This document shows positions 11,851 through 18,606 of a stretch of 64,000 nt of DNA, in pieces. The notes beneath the pieces were generated by a model. That model worked only from the letters and a program-made list of their open reading frames with translations, was not told the origin of the DNA and did no database searches. Position 1 is the stretch's first letter. Every line of letters starts with the position of its first letter. Source of the DNA: Sediminispirochaeta smaragdinae DSM 11293 (GTDB lineage: Bacteria > Spirochaetota > Spirochaetia > DSM-16054 > Sediminispirochaetaceae); assembly GCF_000143985.1 (NCBI RefSeq), contig NC_014364.1, positions 496,001-560,000 on the forward strand, given 5' to 3'. Both the position numbers and the translations under genes were made by a program.

Positions 11851-13059
11851 GTGGATAATACTATACCCACCCTTAAGCTCCGGCTTTCGGCTATGATGTT
11901 TTTACATTATTTTGCCACCGGGGCTTCGCTTCCTCTTATGAGTCTTTATCTCAACCAGGAGCTTGGTTTTGGGGGATCCGGAGCGGGGCTGATTCTTTCT
12001 TTTGCCTCCCTGGCTGCTTTTATTTCGCCTCTTCTGGGTGCCTTTGTAACCGATCGAATCATGTCGGCCGAACGCCTTTTTGCCTTGGTTGAATTCTTAG
12101 CCGCCGTTGCAATCTTTCTTTTGTATCTTCAGCGCTCCTTTCTGCCCGTCTTGTTGTGTTATCTCTTCTATATGAGTCTGATGGTCCCCGCAACTGCGAT
12201 TTCGAATACCATTGTATTCCACCATTCACCGGATAGGGGAAATTCTTTCGGAGGAATCAGGCTATGGGGAACGATCGGGTGGGTCTGCTCCGGATGGCTC
12301 TTTAGCTTTTTCTGGCTTCGCCTCGGCAAGGGATCCGTTTCCGATGCGTTGGTAGCTACCGCCGTGGTCGATGTACTGCTGGGGATGTATGCGTTGACCC
12401 TGCCTTCTTCCCGTTCCTCTGCACCGAGGAGAAAAGAGTTGTTCCCTCGTGCGGCCTTCAAGGTCTTCACGAATCCCGGGGTCATTCTTGTCGGGATAAC
12501 TGCTTTTTTGATGCAAATAACCCAGCGTTATTACTATTTTGGTATACCTCCCTATCTCCGTTCCCTTGGCTTCAGTGATGCCGTTATGCTACCCGCCATG
12601 AGCCTTGGACAGGTTATGGAGGCGGTTAGCATGCTCTTTCTGGTGATCCTCTTTCGCTTTTTTTCCTATCGAACGGTTATGATGCTTGGGGTGACGATGG
12701 AGATTTGCCGTTTCCTCGCATTTTATCTTGGAACAAGTCCCGCAAGTGCACTCCTTGGCATCGCATTCCACGGCCCTTCGTTTGCCTTTTTTTTCACCGT
12801 CTCCTTTATATATATAAATACCTTTGCAGATAAAGAGTCGAGAGCGGGGGTTCAGCAGCTTTTTTTCTTGATTATAGAGGGCTTTGGCACTTTGGCAGGT
12901 AGCCTGCTTTCCGGCTTTGTCTATGATCGAGCTACCGGAGTGGATGGCATCGTCGATTACCACCACTTTTGGGGAGTGCCGCTTGTGTTGGCTTTTTCCG
13001 TTTTTAGCCTGACTGTACTTTTGAGGCTCATTCCGGGATTGAAATCCCGTACTCGTTGA
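11851..13059 (+). CDS. MFS transporter, nucleoside/oligosaccharide-permease-like
   Basis: A 402-residue membrane protein with 12 predicted helices. The opening (LRLSAMMFLHYFATGASLP) and the pattern of helices resemble the MFS_1-like/NHS group, which includes nucleoside:H+ symporters. The substrate is not clear. The start is GTG with AAGGAAC 5-6 bases upstream. Its last 32 bases overlap the end of the convergent response-regulator gene, so there is no room for a terminator between them and antisense interaction at the 3' ends is likely. Confidence 0.78.
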   Translation: MDNTIPTLKLRLSAMMFLHYFATGASLPLMSLYLNQELGFGGSGAGLILSFASLAAFISPLLGAFVTDRIMSAERLFALVEFLAAVAIFLLYLQRSFLPVLLCYLFYMSLMVPATAISNTIVFHHSPDRGNSFGGIRLWGTIGWVCSGWLFSFFWLRLGKGSVSDALVATAVVDVLLGMYALTLPSSRSSAPRRKELFPRAAFKVFTNPGVILVGITAFLMQITQRYYYFGIPPYLRSLGFSDAVMLPAMSLGQVMEAVSMLFLVILFRFFSYRTVMMLGVTMEICRFLAFYLGTSPASALLGIAFHGPSFAFFFTVSFIYINTFADKESRAGVQQLFFLIIEGFGTLAGSLLSGFVYDRATGVDGIVDYHHFWGVPLVLAFSVFSLTVLLRLIPGLKSRTR

Positions 13060-14341
13060 TTTTGTTCAGAAGCGTTCTGCGGGTGATGCCCAGTTCTGCG
13101 GCACTTTTTTCCCTGTGTCCGTTATTTCTCAGAAGGGCTTCCAGAATCGCTTCTCGCTCCAGTTCTCGAAGACTGCCTTTGGGAGTTTGGGGCCCTTCTT
13201 CCTGATGAAGGGGGAAATCCTTACGTTCCAGCAGCGGTGGCTCTGCAAGGATCATCGCTCGTTCGACCATATTTTCCAACTCTCGAATATTCCCGGGAAA
13301 AGAATAGTGTTGCAGCGCTTTCATTGCATCGTCGGAGAAACCCGTGATTGTTTTTCCCATGGATGAGGCAAATTTGCTGCGAAAGGTCTCGGCCAGAAAT
13401 GGAATATCTTCACGTCGTTCCCTCAGGGCAGGAAGCTGGAGATGGATGACGTTCAGCCGATAGTAGAGGTCATCTCTGAAGTCGCGCGCCTTTACCATTG
13501 CATCAAGATCCTTGTTTGTGGCGGCGATGATTCTGATATCAAGAGGGATTGTACCGGTACCGCCCACCCGCGTGACGGCTTTTTCCTGAAGTACCCTCAA
13601 TAGCTTTACTTGAAGGGCGAGAGGCGCTTCACCTACCTCGTCGAGAAAGATGGTCCCCCCATTTGAAGCTTCAAAATAACCAATTTTTCTGTGATCCGCT
13701 CCGGTAAAGGACCCTTTTTCATAGCCGAACAACTCACTTTCCATGAGGCTCTCGGGTATTCCTCCAAGATTGACCGCCTGAAAATTGTTCTTGCTGCGAT
13801 CGGAATGATTATGGAGGAAACGGGCCATTACCTCTTTTCCTGTGCCGCTTTCACCGGTAATGAGAACATTTGAGGCCGTCGGTGCCACCTTTCTCGCCAG
13901 AGAAAAAAGCTGTCGCATGGCAGGACTCTCCCCGGTGTAATCATCGTCGGTGGGTATCGTGTTGGTAAGCTTCTGAAGCTTTCGCCGCTCCAGCTCTCTT
14001 CTCAACCGAAGGATAAGTTCTTCGGGATCGAAGGGCTTTACTACATAGTCGACGGCCCCCTTCTTCATTGCCTGGACGGCATCTTCCACCTCTCCAAAGG
14101 CGGAGATCATAAAAACCGGGATATCGGGGCCGCTTTCACCGATCCACTCCAAGAGTTCGAGTCCGTTCATCCCTGGCATCTTCAGATCGGTGATGACCGC
14201 GTCAAAGTGGTGTTTCATGAGAAGCTGCTGAGCGGCAAGACCGTTGCTTGCCTCTTCGGTTTCTATGCCTTCAAGGGAAAAAAAGTGCGCTATTGATGTC
14301 CGCAGGTTTTTTTCATCATCAACAAGAAGTATGGTATACAT
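13028..14341 (-). CDS. NtrC-family sigma-54-dependent response regulator
   Basis: A 437-residue enhancer-binding protein. The receiver domain (1-120) has acidic pocket Asp8-Asp9, phosphoacceptor Asp52 and the VKPF lysine. The AAA+ domain has Walker A GESGTGKE, Walker B GGTIFLDEVGE, and a sigma-54-contact loop reading GSFTGA instead of GAFTGA. A C-terminal Fis-type helix-turn-helix ends the protein (AAELGITRRTLLNKINEYGI). It is the last gene of the six-gene operon, 6 bases after the kinase gene. The operon has its own sigma-54 promoter and twin palindromes, so autoregulation is the simplest reading. The Ala-to-Ser change in the loop is conservative. Confidence 0.93.
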   Translation of the reverse strand: MYTILLVDDEKNLRTSIAHFFSLEGIETEEASNGLAAQQLLMKHHFDAVITDLKMPGMNGLELLEWIGESGPDIPVFMISAFGEVEDAVQAMKKGAVDYVVKPFDPEELILRLRRELERRKLQKLTNTIPTDDDYTGESPAMRQLFSLARKVAPTASNVLITGESGTGKEVMARFLHNHSDRSKNNFQAVNLGGIPESLMESELFGYEKGSFTGADHRKIGYFEASNGGTIFLDEVGEAPLALQVKLLRVLQEKAVTRVGGTGTIPLDIRIIAATNKDLDAMVKARDFRDDLYYRLNVIHLQLPALRERREDIPFLAETFRSKFASSMGKTITGFSDDAMKALQHYSFPGNIRELENMVERAMILAEPPLLERKDFPLHQEEGPQTPKGSLRELEREAILEALLRNNGHREKSAAELGITRRTLLNKINEYGISIPE

Positions 14342-14347
14342 AGCTCG

Positions 14348-15619
14348 TTATCCTTTCTGGTACAGGGGAAATGTGAGACGAAAGATGGTCCCGCCCGCCT
14401 CTTTATTCCGGCATTCTATCGATCCCCCTGCGTTTTCCGCGAAGCTCTTTACCAACGATAATCCCACTCCGAAGCCGTTTTGCTTGGTGGTGAAAAAGGG
14501 ATGGAAAATTTTCTCTTTATCGTCGTAGGGAATCCCTTTCCCAGCGTCTGCAAAGGAGATCACGACACTGTTGCGAAGAAGCGATATGTCGACGCTAAGA
14601 GGGGGCGTGTCACTGCCTTGAGCCTCCCTGCCGTTTCTGAGGATATTCTCTACGGCAGAAACAAAAAGGGTTTTGTCGCAAAATATCCTGGGTGACCTGG
14701 CTTGTGTATTGTCATGGATTGTAACGGGAAAGGGCAGCCTTTGTGAACGTTCCTCAAGTAGGGGAACGAGCTCTATCGGTTCCGGCCTGCCTTTCGGCTG
14801 CTTGAGAAGCAGACGCACTCGATCGATCATATCGGAAATTCGTTCGGTCTCCTCTCCGATGATATCGAGGGAGGCGGTGAGGTCCTTATCCTTGCCGAAC
14901 TGACGGCGAAGGATCTTTTCCTGCATGCTGATGACCGCAAGGGGGTTTTTCAGTTCGTGAGTCAAGGTCCTTGCCGCAGACCCTAGTTCGGTGAGGATCT
15001 TTTTCTCTTCGAGTTCCCGTTCATAGGAACGTACTCTTCGATAGAAAATCCAGCTGCTTGCAGATGCGCCGATAAAAAGCAGGGCCCCGAAGAGAAGCAA
15101 AAACACACGCGCCCTGGATTGGAAGAGAAAGGCTCCGGTGTCGTAATCCAAATAAAGGAACAGACGCCCCTGCGATTGCATGCCGACTCTTGCCCCCCGC
15201 CCCTGGAGATTGCCTGCCCCGTTCATACCTGCTCCCCCCAGGGCCCGGAGGAGCAGAAGGGATCCCTGTTTTTCTCGTATCCACCTCTCCTGCGGTATTC
15301 CGCTCGTCCTTCCGTGGGGGGAAGAGATGAAGCGTGTTGTATCCAATTTGGATGGATATGTCCCCCTGCCGATCACTGCATGGCCGTTGCTCCCGTATAG
15401 GGCGAACCCCCTCACATGATCAGGAAGGGGCGGTGGGTCGGATACCGATGAGGTGAGCATCTGTTCCGTCAGAAAAGAAGCGATTTTTCCGACCTCTGAT
15501 TCTACCAAAAGCCTGTCGTGGCGTATGCTTTGTCTAATGAGAGAGCCAAAGCTTCCAAGTGCCAAGATCAGGGCGACAGCGGTGGTTAGTATCGGTATGA
15601 TAAATCGTTGCTGTTTCAT
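14348..15619 (-). CDS. Membrane sensor histidine kinase paired with the NtrC-type regulator
   Basis: A 423-residue kinase. TM1 lies near 6-28 and the extracytoplasmic sensor near 30-175. TM2 lies near 176-198. The H-box is LTHELKNPLAVI and the HATPase domain is in the C-terminal third (N-box ENILRNGREAQG, G-box DAGKGIPYDD, FTTKQNGFGVGLSL). The sensor carries a Gly-rich stretch (ALGGAGMNGAGNLQGRGARV). There is no HAMP or PAS domain, so sensing is likely direct in the periplasm. The layout resembles ZraS-like kinases. The start overlaps the DUF2202 stop by 4 bases (ATGA), implying translational coupling. Confidence 0.9.
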   Translation of the reverse strand: MKQQRFIIPILTTAVALILALGSFGSLIRQSIRHDRLLVESEVGKIASFLTEQMLTSSVSDPPPLPDHVRGFALYGSNGHAVIGRGTYPSKLDTTRFISSPHGRTSGIPQERWIREKQGSLLLLRALGGAGMNGAGNLQGRGARVGMQSQGRLFLYLDYDTGAFLFQSRARVFLLLFGALLFIGASASSWIFYRRVRSYERELEEKKILTELGSAARTLTHELKNPLAVISMQEKILRRQFGKDKDLTASLDIIGEETERISDMIDRVRLLLKQPKGRPEPIELVPLLEERSQRLPFPVTIHDNTQARSPRIFCDKTLFVSAVENILRNGREAQGSDTPPLSVDISLLRNSVVISFADAGKGIPYDDKEKIFHPFFTTKQNGFGVGLSLVKSFAENAGGSIECRNKEAGGTIFRLTFPLYQKG

Positions 15620-16317
15620 CGTGGGAACATAAAGTTGGGTTCGCTCACTACTCCTCGTTCGTTTTCGCTTTCTATAATAGCACGGAAAAGCTGCTGGTCG
15701 ATGTGTTTAGGAATATACCGTTTGCCTATTTGATGAAGTTGGGCGTTGAAGCTTCTTAGGTGGTTACGGCTTCCCTTGTTGAGATTCTGATAGACTATCT
15801 TGATGTCTTTGTTATCACTCTCCTGAAGCAGTCGTTCAAGATCAAAGATATCAAGATCCTCGACGGTGGCACCGACCTCAAATGCAGAGGCGAGAGAGAG
15901 CGTTCCTTCATCGAGCAATTCCTCATAAAGCTGTTTGAGATGCTTGTTGTCGAATTCTCCCGGTGCCTCAGAGCCGGGCTCCTCAAGAGCGTAGCGTGTG
16001 ATAAGCAGTTTCACCCATTCCATATGGCTTGCCTCGCTTTTGGCGATATTTGCAAAGATGGGGATATTCCATGCTTCATACAGGGCCTCGTAAAGATCAT
16101 GTGCCAGCTTCTCCTCCTCGTGCATCAGCAGAATCCCCTCTCTCTCCGACTGACTCAAAGATGCAGGTTCAATCGTTTCGAGAATTTGCGAAAGCGGGAG
16201 CGCCTCTTGGGGGGGGCCTCCTCGTTGTGCGTGGAGAATCGGTGGGAATAGCATGATGGTGATGCACAGTAGAATTCCTGCAAAGTTTGATGATAGCTGT
16301 TTCATTGGTTGCCTCAT
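15616..16317 (-). CDS. Exported DUF2202 (ferritin-like) protein
   Basis: A 233-residue protein with a signal peptide (hydrophobic to about residue 27, then AHAQ-like cleavage). The DUF2202 core has the two-helix pattern HEEEKLAHDLYEAL followed by KSEASHMEWVKLLI. It supplies the Glu and His ligands expected of a ferritin-like di-metal site. The second half contains NKGSRNHLRSFNAQL, also typical. The function of DUF2202 is not established; periplasmic metal or oxidative chemistry is inferred. It overlaps both neighbours by 4 bases. Its position between membrane ferredoxin genes and a two-component system suggests it is either an effector or a sensor accessory. Confidence 0.85.
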   Translation of the reverse strand: MRQPMKQLSSNFAGILLCITIMLFPPILHAQRGGPPQEALPLSQILETIEPASLSQSEREGILLMHEEEKLAHDLYEALYEAWNIPIFANIAKSEASHMEWVKLLITRYALEEPGSEAPGEFDNKHLKQLYEELLDEGTLSLASAFEVGATVEDLDIFDLERLLQESDNKDIKIVYQNLNKGSRNHLRSFNAQLHQIGKRYIPKHIDQQLFRAIIESENERGVVSEPNFMFPR

Positions 16318-17048
16318 TTCTGAACGTTGTCTACTTTTTTCTGGAGTAGGGCCTTGTACTGAGAGAATTCAAGGCCTGCAGCCCCAAGATGGTCTCTGAT
16401 CACCTGGTCACGGTTGCCGGCCTTAATGCCAATAACTTCCTCAATAGTTAGGGTCGTCAGTCCGGCATCGAACAGCTGACCATACGTGGTGTTCCCTTTT
16501 ATTTCCAGTGTACTCCCGGTCTCACTGGTGGGGGCTTTGGGCACCTCATTCGGGCTCTCCATTTCGACCCCGTAACGATCTTTCAGTTCGGCCCACCGTG
16601 CCTCATCAAGCTTACCTTCACGCCTAAGAAGAGCAAGGGCGGTATAGGGAAGTCTGGTATCCTCTTCAGCCTCATAGGGGATGGATGTGTAGAGACTTAC
16701 AAAGAGTCGCATGCTGTCTGTCCCCACTTCTCCTTCAGCCGGTTGCGGGTAGGCTTCGAAGCTTTTCGGCTGGGTCGTTTCGGGTTCTCCACTCACTGCA
16801 AAGACGAAGGCCTCCGCCAATTGTGCCACGGGTATTTTGAAGGCCGATTCAATATTCTCGAAGGTATATGATCCTTTTATTGCCGCCGGATCATAGGCTC
16901 CCGCAAAGGGACCGCTTTCTATTCTTGTTGGGATTTTGCTGCTTTCGGTTCGCCAGTAACCGATGATCATGGAACCGCCGATACTGAGACCGAATAAGAG
17001 GACAATCGATAGGGCAAGGATTTTCCCCGATATGTTGAACTGCCTCAT
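16314..17048 (-). CDS. Membrane-anchored partner protein of the NapH-type ferredoxin
   Basis: A 244-residue protein with one N-terminal membrane anchor (near 10-31) and a large extracytoplasmic part. Two short related motifs stand out: YTFENIESAFKIPVAQLAEAF-type (near residues 60-82, hydrophobic heptads) and TTYGQLFDAGLTTLTIEEVI (near 190-209). I know such motifs from proteins linked to NapH/4Fe-4S membrane ferredoxins, but no function is assigned. No cysteines suited to Fe-S binding are visible. The start at 17048 overlaps the ferredoxin stop by ATGA and has GGAGGGAAAGAGG upstream, so a longer reading was rejected. Confidence 0.7.
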   Translation of the reverse strand: MRQFNISGKILALSIVLLFGLSIGGSMIIGYWRTESSKIPTRIESGPFAGAYDPAAIKGSYTFENIESAFKIPVAQLAEAFVFAVSGEPETTQPKSFEAYPQPAEGEVGTDSMRLFVSLYTSIPYEAEEDTRLPYTALALLRREGKLDEARWAELKDRYGVEMESPNEVPKAPTSETGSTLEIKGNTTYGQLFDAGLTTLTIEEVIGIKAGNRDQVIRDHLGAAGLEFSQYKALLQKKVDNVQK

Positions 17049-17881
17049 GCCTCTTTCCCTCCTCCTGCAAATTCTACCGTCCGGGGAACCGGGCAGGCTG
17101 CCTCGCTTGTGCATTTCAGACAGCTGATGCACTGATGGTTGCGTACCTTTTCTGCCGTTGAGACGGTGATGTTCATGGGGCAGGCCTTATCGCAGGCCTT
17201 ACAGTTGATGCAGCTTGAATCGCGCCGCCGTATCCCGAAGATCCTTACAAGGTTGAAGAGGCCCAGGAGTGCTCCATAGGGGCAGGCGTACTTGCAGAAG
17301 GGGCGTTCTACCAAAAGCGAAAGCAGCAAAATAATGAATAGAATGACTATTCCGCTTATGGCGACTTCTCCGCTCCAGAAATTAAAAAGTGCATAGTAGG
17401 GATCATAATCGGCAAATATCAGTTTACCTGTCACTGTTGTACTATAGAGAACCCAGAGAAGAACAACATAGCGAAGGAAACGAAGGGGCCGATCGATTTT
17501 TGGAGAAAGGATCCTGTTGTACCTATTCCCAAAGATCTTCTTTCCTATCTTTCCCACGAACTCTTGAACGGTTCCGAAGGGACAGACCCATCCGCAAAAA
17601 GCGGGTCCGAAAAGAATGGCGATGAGAAAGGCTGCGATCATCAGTACGATCGACGACTCATGGATCTTTGAGATAAAGGTTCCGCTTGTGAAAAGCTGGC
17701 CCAGGGTAACTACCCCGCCAAACGGACAAACCGCATGGGTGGATGCCGAGGCAAACAGCGGGATGGTGGCCATCCCTTTCTCTTCAAGAGCATGATTAAC
17801 AGTAATAAGTGCAATCACAATAAAGAAAAAGATTTGGACGAATGTCCGAAGAGTCTTTTTTCTCCTTTTTACCTGCTTCAT
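17045..17881 (-). CDS. NapH/MauN-type membrane 4Fe-4S ferredoxin
   Basis: A 278-residue integral membrane electron carrier. Visible cysteine motifs are CPFGG (near 50), FCGWVCPFGT (near 97-106), CKYACPYG (near 197), and two C-terminal 4Fe-4S clusters (CINCKACDKACP and CISCLKCTSEAACP). Helices lie near 12-30, 75-95, 130-150 and 165-190. Family members pass electrons from the quinone pool or cytoplasm to periplasmic proteins. Here likely recipients are the anchored partner and DUF2202 proteins encoded next in the operon. The GC-rich hairpin 45 bases upstream may lower its expression relative to the first gene. Confidence 0.88.
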   Translation of the reverse strand: MKQVKRRKKTLRTFVQIFFFIVIALITVNHALEEKGMATIPLFASASTHAVCPFGGVVTLGQLFTSGTFISKIHESSIVLMIAAFLIAILFGPAFCGWVCPFGTVQEFVGKIGKKIFGNRYNRILSPKIDRPLRFLRYVVLLWVLYSTTVTGKLIFADYDPYYALFNFWSGEVAISGIVILFIILLLSLLVERPFCKYACPYGALLGLFNLVRIFGIRRRDSSCINCKACDKACPMNITVSTAEKVRNHQCISCLKCTSEAACPVPRTVEFAGGGKEA

Positions 17882-17925
17882 TCCTGTTTCTCCTTTTAAA
17901 GATGGTTATGACCTGGACAAGGAAA

Positions 17926-17951
17926 GGCGGCCCCCTCGTAGCCGGGCCGCC
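17926..17951 (-). terminator. Intercistronic hairpin, partial terminator or attenuator
   Basis: GGCGGCCC (17926-17933) pairs with GGGCCGCC (17944-17951), followed on the minus strand by TTTCC. It lies in the 93-base gap between the first gene and the rest of the operon, so read-through would set a higher dose of the first product. Confidence 0.55.
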
Positions 17952-17974
17952 CCTTGAGCTTCTGTTCCTTCGCT

Positions 17975-18448
17975 CTAGTTTGCCCGGTACATTCCGTAAC
18001 CCCTACCGCTTCGTCCATAGCCTCCGGATCGGCCTCTTCCCGATGGACCAAACCCGCGAGAGGCTGTCATAAGTTCATATTCCCTCCCTTCTACCGTTGC
18101 TCTCCGCACTACCAGGTGACCGTCATTGGCCACAGGGCAGATATCAAGGGGGGCATAAAGATCAGCCTCTACCTCCATTGTCGTTCCTTCTTTGGGTAAA
18201 AATCCACTACGGGGATAACCGGGAGCACTAATCGTGTAGAGTTTCCCTCCGGACCGAAATAAATATTGCCCATCCTCCATGACCAAGGTTCCTTCGGCGT
18301 TGAGCTGCTCGAGTGGGGCTGCAAAACGTGAGCCGCTGCCTGCGACGCCTCTCACGGGAACGGCCTCTCTGGTTCCGTTTGCGAACAGTGCCACCGACAT
18401 GAAAAGTAACCCGACGGTGATGATTGCCATTTTTCCGAATAGCTTCAT
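17975..18448 (-). CDS. Small exported protein with Gly/Arg-rich tail, first gene of the sigma-54 operon
   Basis: A 157-residue protein with a clear signal peptide (MKLFGKMAIITVGLLFMSVA, then LFANGTRE). It contains a small beta-rich middle part (LVMEDGQYLFRSGGKLYTIS, near 56-75) and a tail rich in Gly, Arg, Ser and Tyr (RGFGPSGRGRSGGYGRSGRG). A single Cys lies in LDICPVA. The family is not recognised. ATG at 18448 has AAGGAGG upstream. Being first behind the sigma-54 promoter and separated by a hairpin, it should be the most abundant product, a place analogous to ZraP in zinc/envelope-stress systems. That analogy is positional only. Confidence 0.7.
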   Translation of the reverse strand: MKLFGKMAIITVGLLFMSVALFANGTREAVPVRGVAGSGSRFAAPLEQLNAEGTLVMEDGQYLFRSGGKLYTISAPGYPRSGFLPKEGTTMEVEADLYAPLDICPVANDGHLVVRRATVEGREYELMTASRGFGPSGRGRSGGYGRSGRGYGMYRAN

Positions 18449-18496
18449 GATTCCTCCTTGCCGCATTGCGGCTTCGTATGATTTCTACAACTGTAT

Positions 18497-18514
18497 AAGC
18501 AGGAACCATGCCAA
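18497..18514 (-). promoter_or_regulatory. Sigma-54 (-24/-12) promoter of the redox/two-component operon
   Basis: Minus strand reads TTGGCATGGTTCCTGCTT, with GG (18512-18511) and GC (18500-18499) separated by exactly 10 bases. It matches the hsp20 promoter at 16 of 18 positions. The predicted start is near 18487, with a leader of about 39 bases to the ATG at 18448. Confidence 0.85.
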
Positions 18515-18563
18515 TATTGATGTTGTTTTCTGGTAAGATTTCGAGAAGATTGGGGGCTCACAG

Positions 18564-18606
18564 GGGAAAAAATTTCCCATAGCAAAAAAATGGGAAATTT
18601 TTTCCC
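18564..18606. promoter_or_regulatory. Twin palindromes GGGAAA-N3-TTTCCC, candidate activator-binding sites
   Basis: GGGAAAAAATTTCCC (18564-18578) and GGGAAATTTTTTCCC (18592-18606) are each palindromic. Together with flanking AT bases they form a perfect 17-bp inverted repeat with a 9-base spacer. Their centres lie about 84 and 112 bases before the predicted sigma-54 start, the usual enhancer distance. They also lie 11 bases after the stop of the upstream minus-strand aminotransferase gene, so a terminator role is possible, although there is no T run after the structure. Confidence 0.65.

Follow-up and report, generated by a model that had tools for sequence, protein, structure and literature searches.

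A GGGAAA-N3-TTTCCC palindrome pair as the predicted enhancer of a sigma-54 two-component operon in Sediminispirochaeta smaragdinae

Two GGGAAA-N3-TTTCCC palindromes upstream of the operon F-E-D-C-B-A of the marine spirochaete S. smaragdinae very probably constitute a paired enhancer (upstream activating sequence) for the response regulator A and drive an autoregulated sigma-54 operon. The palindromes are regarded as predicted A sites because the same word recurs, often paired 28–30 bases apart, before the same regulator operon in distant spirochaetes. The sites, the promoter, the operon order, the domain content and the repeated association of the word with orthologous regulators can all be read from the DNA and its translations. 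In the proposed mechanism, the sensor kinase B would phosphorylate A, and A dimers would occupy each of the two palindromes, forming an AAA+ oligomer about 84–112 bp upstream of the start. The intervening DNA would loop, and A would remodel the sigma-54 holoenzyme waiting at 18513–18498, by which F-E-D-C-B-A would be switched on as one autoregulated transcription unit. The features concerned, in a window of 64 kb (the whole stretch of DNA that was analysed), are the following.

18592–18606, minus strand: distal palindrome, predicted response-regulator dimer site, GGGAAAAAATTTCCC on the minus strand, centre 18599 (-112)
18564–18578, minus strand: proximal palindrome, GGGAAATTTTTTCCC on the minus strand, centre 18571 (-84)
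18513–18498, minus strand: sigma-54 promoter TGGCATGGTTCCTGCT, -24 GG and -12 GC, full GG-N10-GC consensus
18487, minus strand: predicted transcription start, placed from the -12 element (C of GC at 18499)
17975–18448, minus strand: gene F, operon leader gene, small exported protein with a Gly/Arg-rich tail, the ATG after AGGAGG taken as corrected start
17045–17881, minus strand: gene E, membrane 4Fe-4S protein resembling NapH (Pfam Fer4_5; sub-threshold NCBIfam match, NapH/MauN-like)
16314–17132, minus strand: gene D, family not recognised, predicted membrane anchor
15616–16317, minus strand: gene C, exported DUF2202 protein (Pfam PF09968, E 1e-57)
14348–15619, minus strand: gene B, membrane sensor histidine kinase (Pfam HisKA, HATPase_c)
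13028–14341, minus strand: gene A, NtrC-type response regulator, predicted palindrome binder (Pfam Response_reg, Sigma54_activat, HTH_8)

On the minus strand, the stop codon of a class III aminotransferase gene (18617) is followed by GGGAAAAAATTTCCC (18606–18592), ATTTTTTTGCTAT, GGGAAATTTTTTCCC (18578–18564), the promoter TGGCATGGTTCCTGCT, the leader and AGGAGGAATC-ATG at 18448. Read on the plus strand, 18564–18578 is GGGAAAAAATTTCCC and 18592–18606 is GGGAAATTTTTTCCC, both fitting GGGAAA-N3-TTTCCC. The first-pass annotation had described two palindromes with identical ends, centred about 84 and 112 bases from the predicted start and forming a perfect 17-bp inverted repeat, and each of these points was recovered: the centres lie at 18571 and 18599 relative to a predicted +1 at 18487, and the arms span 18564–18580 and 18590–18606 with a loop of 9 nt. 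Since the two copies of any repeated palindrome are automatically inverted repeats of each other, it is the AAA/TTT spacers and the AT/AT flanks alone that raise the 17-bp repeat above a by-product. The exact word occurs twice in the window, both copies belonging to the pair, and three times in the genome, a single chromosome of 4,653,970 bp (4.65 Mb), where the pair accounts for two of the three. The remaining copy (1475010, L003) was set aside, there being no strong sigma-54 site nearby. With up to one mismatch, three sites are present in the window compared with 0.53 expected.

The promoter TGGCATGGTTCCTGCT is the sole site in the window that matches the degenerate full sigma-54 consensus (0.094 expected in 64 kb), and the genome contains one good match to rpoN (PF04552, 189 bits, G000:C1:4378188). 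Counted from the site centre to the start of the -24 element, the palindromes are located at -86 and -58. They show the conservation and the placement, roughly 80–200 bp upstream, that characterise the activator sites of a sigma-54 promoter with an enhancer. Gene A is the last gene of the operon, and its product combines a receiver, a sigma-54 AAA+ domain and a Fis-type HTH (Pfam), as is defining for a group I bEBP. The AAA+ loop reads GSFTGA in A and GAFTGA in most orthologues.

The leader gene product F gave no Pfam or NCBIfam match, and a sequence-profile search against solved structures yielded no convincing relative. Homologues or look-alikes of F, likewise small exported proteins, head the operon in relatives from several families. 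D adjoins E in nearly all related genomes with a close E homologue; at loci L006–L030, a DUF2202 gene is often near the E/D pair and other regulators stand alongside. A search of the genome contigs with kinase B as query returned remote kinases alone. Between F and E lies a G+C-rich hairpin (17922–17955, minus strand) that is unchanged in the congener and has an ordinary folding energy; it could serve as an attenuator of transcription after the first gene. The sensor kinases at L060, L061, L063, L066 and L076 possess extracytoplasmic parts with Met/Pro/Arg-rich stretches, such as MMDRRNMMMSGPRH, a possible hint of metal or oxidant sensing.

In the congener (G001), the regulator is 95% identical to A, and both 15-bp palindromes are kept letter for letter together with their spacing and the sigma-54 promoter. 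The changes lie outside the palindromes: CCCAT has become CCCAC at the inner pair and GTGAG has become ATGAA in the outer arm, so that hairpin pairs beyond the palindromes are lost. With two species compared, the retention of the palindromes alongside the loss of flanking hairpin pairs is suggestive. Further afield, regulator orthologues are about 46–57% identical to A (mostly above 50%), paralogues about 44%, and the orthologues form one clade apart from the paralogues with a support of 100/100 in the tree.

The orthologue loci were retrieved and the regions upstream of strong sigma-54 sites inspected, with distances again given from the site centre to the start of the -24 element. G021 carries the exact word twice, as GGGAAAACATTTCCC at -85 and, before a second, independent promoter, as GGGAAAATATTTCCC at -76. 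Pairs are present in G037 (GGGAAAAGATTACCC/GGGAAAAATGTTCCC at -118/-89), in G058 (GGGAATATTTTTCCC/CGGAAAACATTTCAC at -97/-67) and in G046 (two GGGGAAATTTTCC[CT]C at -117/-89), while G041 has GGGAAGGATTTTCCC at -120. A paired site upstream of an RND pump in G037, at -86/-58, reproduces the distances of the window pair. The orthologous promoters at L064 and L136 lack the word, those at L071, L075, L130, L132 and L137 have a GTGCAA-like variant at best, and at 13 orthologous loci the stretch examined contained no clear sigma-54 promoter. The proposal that the palindromes are NtrC-type enhancers and the natural target of the operon's own activator is well supported by finding the same word, often paired at 28–30 bp, before sigma-54 promoters at A orthologues in other families.

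Across 16 sigma-54 promoters from outside the genus, taken at orthologous loci of kinase and regulator, the word is enriched with a Fisher p of 2.3e-10; because promoters treated as independent share ancestry, this combined value is an inexact guide. The word was fixed from the window alone, dinucleotide shuffles served as the null, and the promoters were those beside orthologues, selected on the sigma-54 score. L076 joined the set following a ranking on promoter and site combined, which makes its own p somewhat optimistic. Distances of 15 to 60 bp from the best site were profiled for a second copy, and enrichment appeared at 28, 29 and 30 bp alone. When 20 anagrams of GGGAAA were tested, the true word gave 1.6e-8 and the next best 2e-3; half-site spacers of 3 or 2 performed best in this control, other spacers not being strongly enriched. 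A class-wide scan of 395 genomes for word plus promoter returned 14 matches compared with 2 for the reversed control, several of the matches resembling chance coding matches or preceding unrelated genes such as ftsH. At L125 (G235) and L128 (G271), an ftsH-like gene is preceded by a perfect sigma-54 promoter that has a GGGAAC-N3-CTTCCC-like palindrome at -58.

Alternatively, the palindromes could act solely as an intrinsic terminator for the aminotransferase gene upstream. The structure starts 10 bases past the aminotransferase stop, the minus-strand sequence GGGAAA-AAA-TTTCCC, with ATTTTTTT after it, counts among the listed terminator-like sites, and the long hairpin has a folding energy of -33.9 kcal/mol (z -6.8). 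Of the two stems, the weak 6-bp one carries a T-run on the minus strand, and the long hairpin has no T-run behind it. However, the single stem has just three G-C pairs and -6.4 kcal/mol, and terminator-like sites in the region are no commoner than in shuffles. Behind the word, the T-run is present in this genus and in G021 but missing from most other families, and one word copy of G021 precedes a divergent gene. Outside the genus, it is the palindromes that are general, not the T-run or the long hairpin. A terminator predicts neither a shared word nor 28–30 bp pairing before sigma-54 promoters. The terminator-only case, named in the first-pass annotation as the contrary outcome, therefore leaves the cross-family evidence unaccounted for and appears highly improbable. 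A combined role, in which the enhancer sites of this genus double as terminator of the aminotransferase transcript, is rather unlikely yet considerably more plausible. The T-run and a near-complete hairpin are kept in the congener, and the AAA/TTT spacers, being complementary, improve the hairpin beyond what two palindromes require, but the congener lacks the outer stem CTCAC/GTGAG and one inner A-T pair. An Rfam search found nothing meaningful.

Binding of the palindromes by a different activator or repressor instead of A is also improbable, if slightly less so than termination alone. The genome holds many candidate regulators that share domains with A, 113 at a first look. Against this, the word tracks the orthologues of A across families, the recognition helices of the paralogue clade differ (GIGRKTLHRK against GITRRTLLNK), and none of the five sampled paralogue loci has a strong sigma-54 promoter carrying the word.

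The word was also expected to reveal other members of the regulon, which held for relatives and not for S. smaragdinae itself: genome searches for word plus promoter recovered this operon and no other convincing site. A match at G000:2431077, whose word is kept in the congener, was judged a chance occurrence, its promoter match being weak. The regulon consequently looks autoregulatory in this genome, while the search patterns permit limited divergence and may miss weaker members. In G037 (L123), the arrangement precedes an AcrB-type (RND) pump and a TolC-type channel, and in G058 (L124) an exported 162-residue protein and a ferric-reductase-like FAD/NAD protein. A homologue of the G058 pair is situated in the F operon of G021 (L060), with FAD and NAD domains confirmed by Pfam. 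The occurrence of the pump, the ferric-reductase-like pair and F-like proteins under the same arrangement suggests a response to envelope or redox stress that may work in a ZraSR-like manner. As for the signal itself, envelope, metal or redox stress is a guess based on the genes that this regulon and its relatives contain.

The sister orthologue set at L071, L075, L130, L132 and L137 displays GTGCAA-N3-TTGCAC-like sites upstream of sigma-54 sites, for instance GTGCAATTCTTTCAC and GCGCAAAAGTTGCAC, some of which precede HlyD/MacB/TolC-type efflux operons. A test of GTGCAA is circular, as the group was picked by viewing its sites, and comparison of recognition helix and word revealed no clean one-residue rule among the regulators compared. 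A broader proposal, tentative and with belief and doubt nearly balanced, is that a two-component sigma-54 regulon of the class, not previously described, may control small exported proteins together with envelope efflux pumps and proteins of transmembrane electron transfer. Its paired operator word would be GGGAAA-N3-TTTCCC in one group of lineages and shift to a GTGCAA-N3-TTGCAC-like form in another as the recognition helix changes. No description of the regulon was present in the open-access literature searched. An uncharacterised two-component system, widespread among the spirochaete relatives of S. smaragdinae, is here given a DNA word, a promoter class and a target operon, in a group with few defined sigma-54 enhancers. 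Furthermore, the pair spacing and the apparent change of word between lineages make the binding specificity of the regulator family directly testable.

The NtrC/glnA enhancer consists of TGCACC-N5-GGTGCA pairs about three turns apart. As in the window, a sigma-54 promoter is preceded at about 100 bp by dimer sites in a pair, whereas the word, the half-site spacing (N3 in the window) and the pair spacing of 28–30 bp are different; A reaches 397 bits against the NtrC equivalog NCBIfam TIGR01818, for which 558.6 are needed. NtrC1 of Aquifex (4l4u, 1ny5) is the nearest solved full-length homologue of A and has the same domain order, with no sign of a common target or word. ZraR (1ojl) is likewise among the nearest solved structures, and A scores 376 bits against the ZraR equivalog NCBIfam PRK10365 compared with the 760 needed. 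ZraP/ZraSR of Escherichia coli is a sigma-54 two-component envelope-stress system (PMC7657598). It is without the genes E, D and DUF2202 of the operon described here, and F is not recognised as ZraP by the libraries used. What the ZraSR system has in common with this operon is an NtrC-family regulator with a sensor kinase, a gene for a small exported protein and, as predicted here, autoregulation, sigma-54 dependence and a small regulon.
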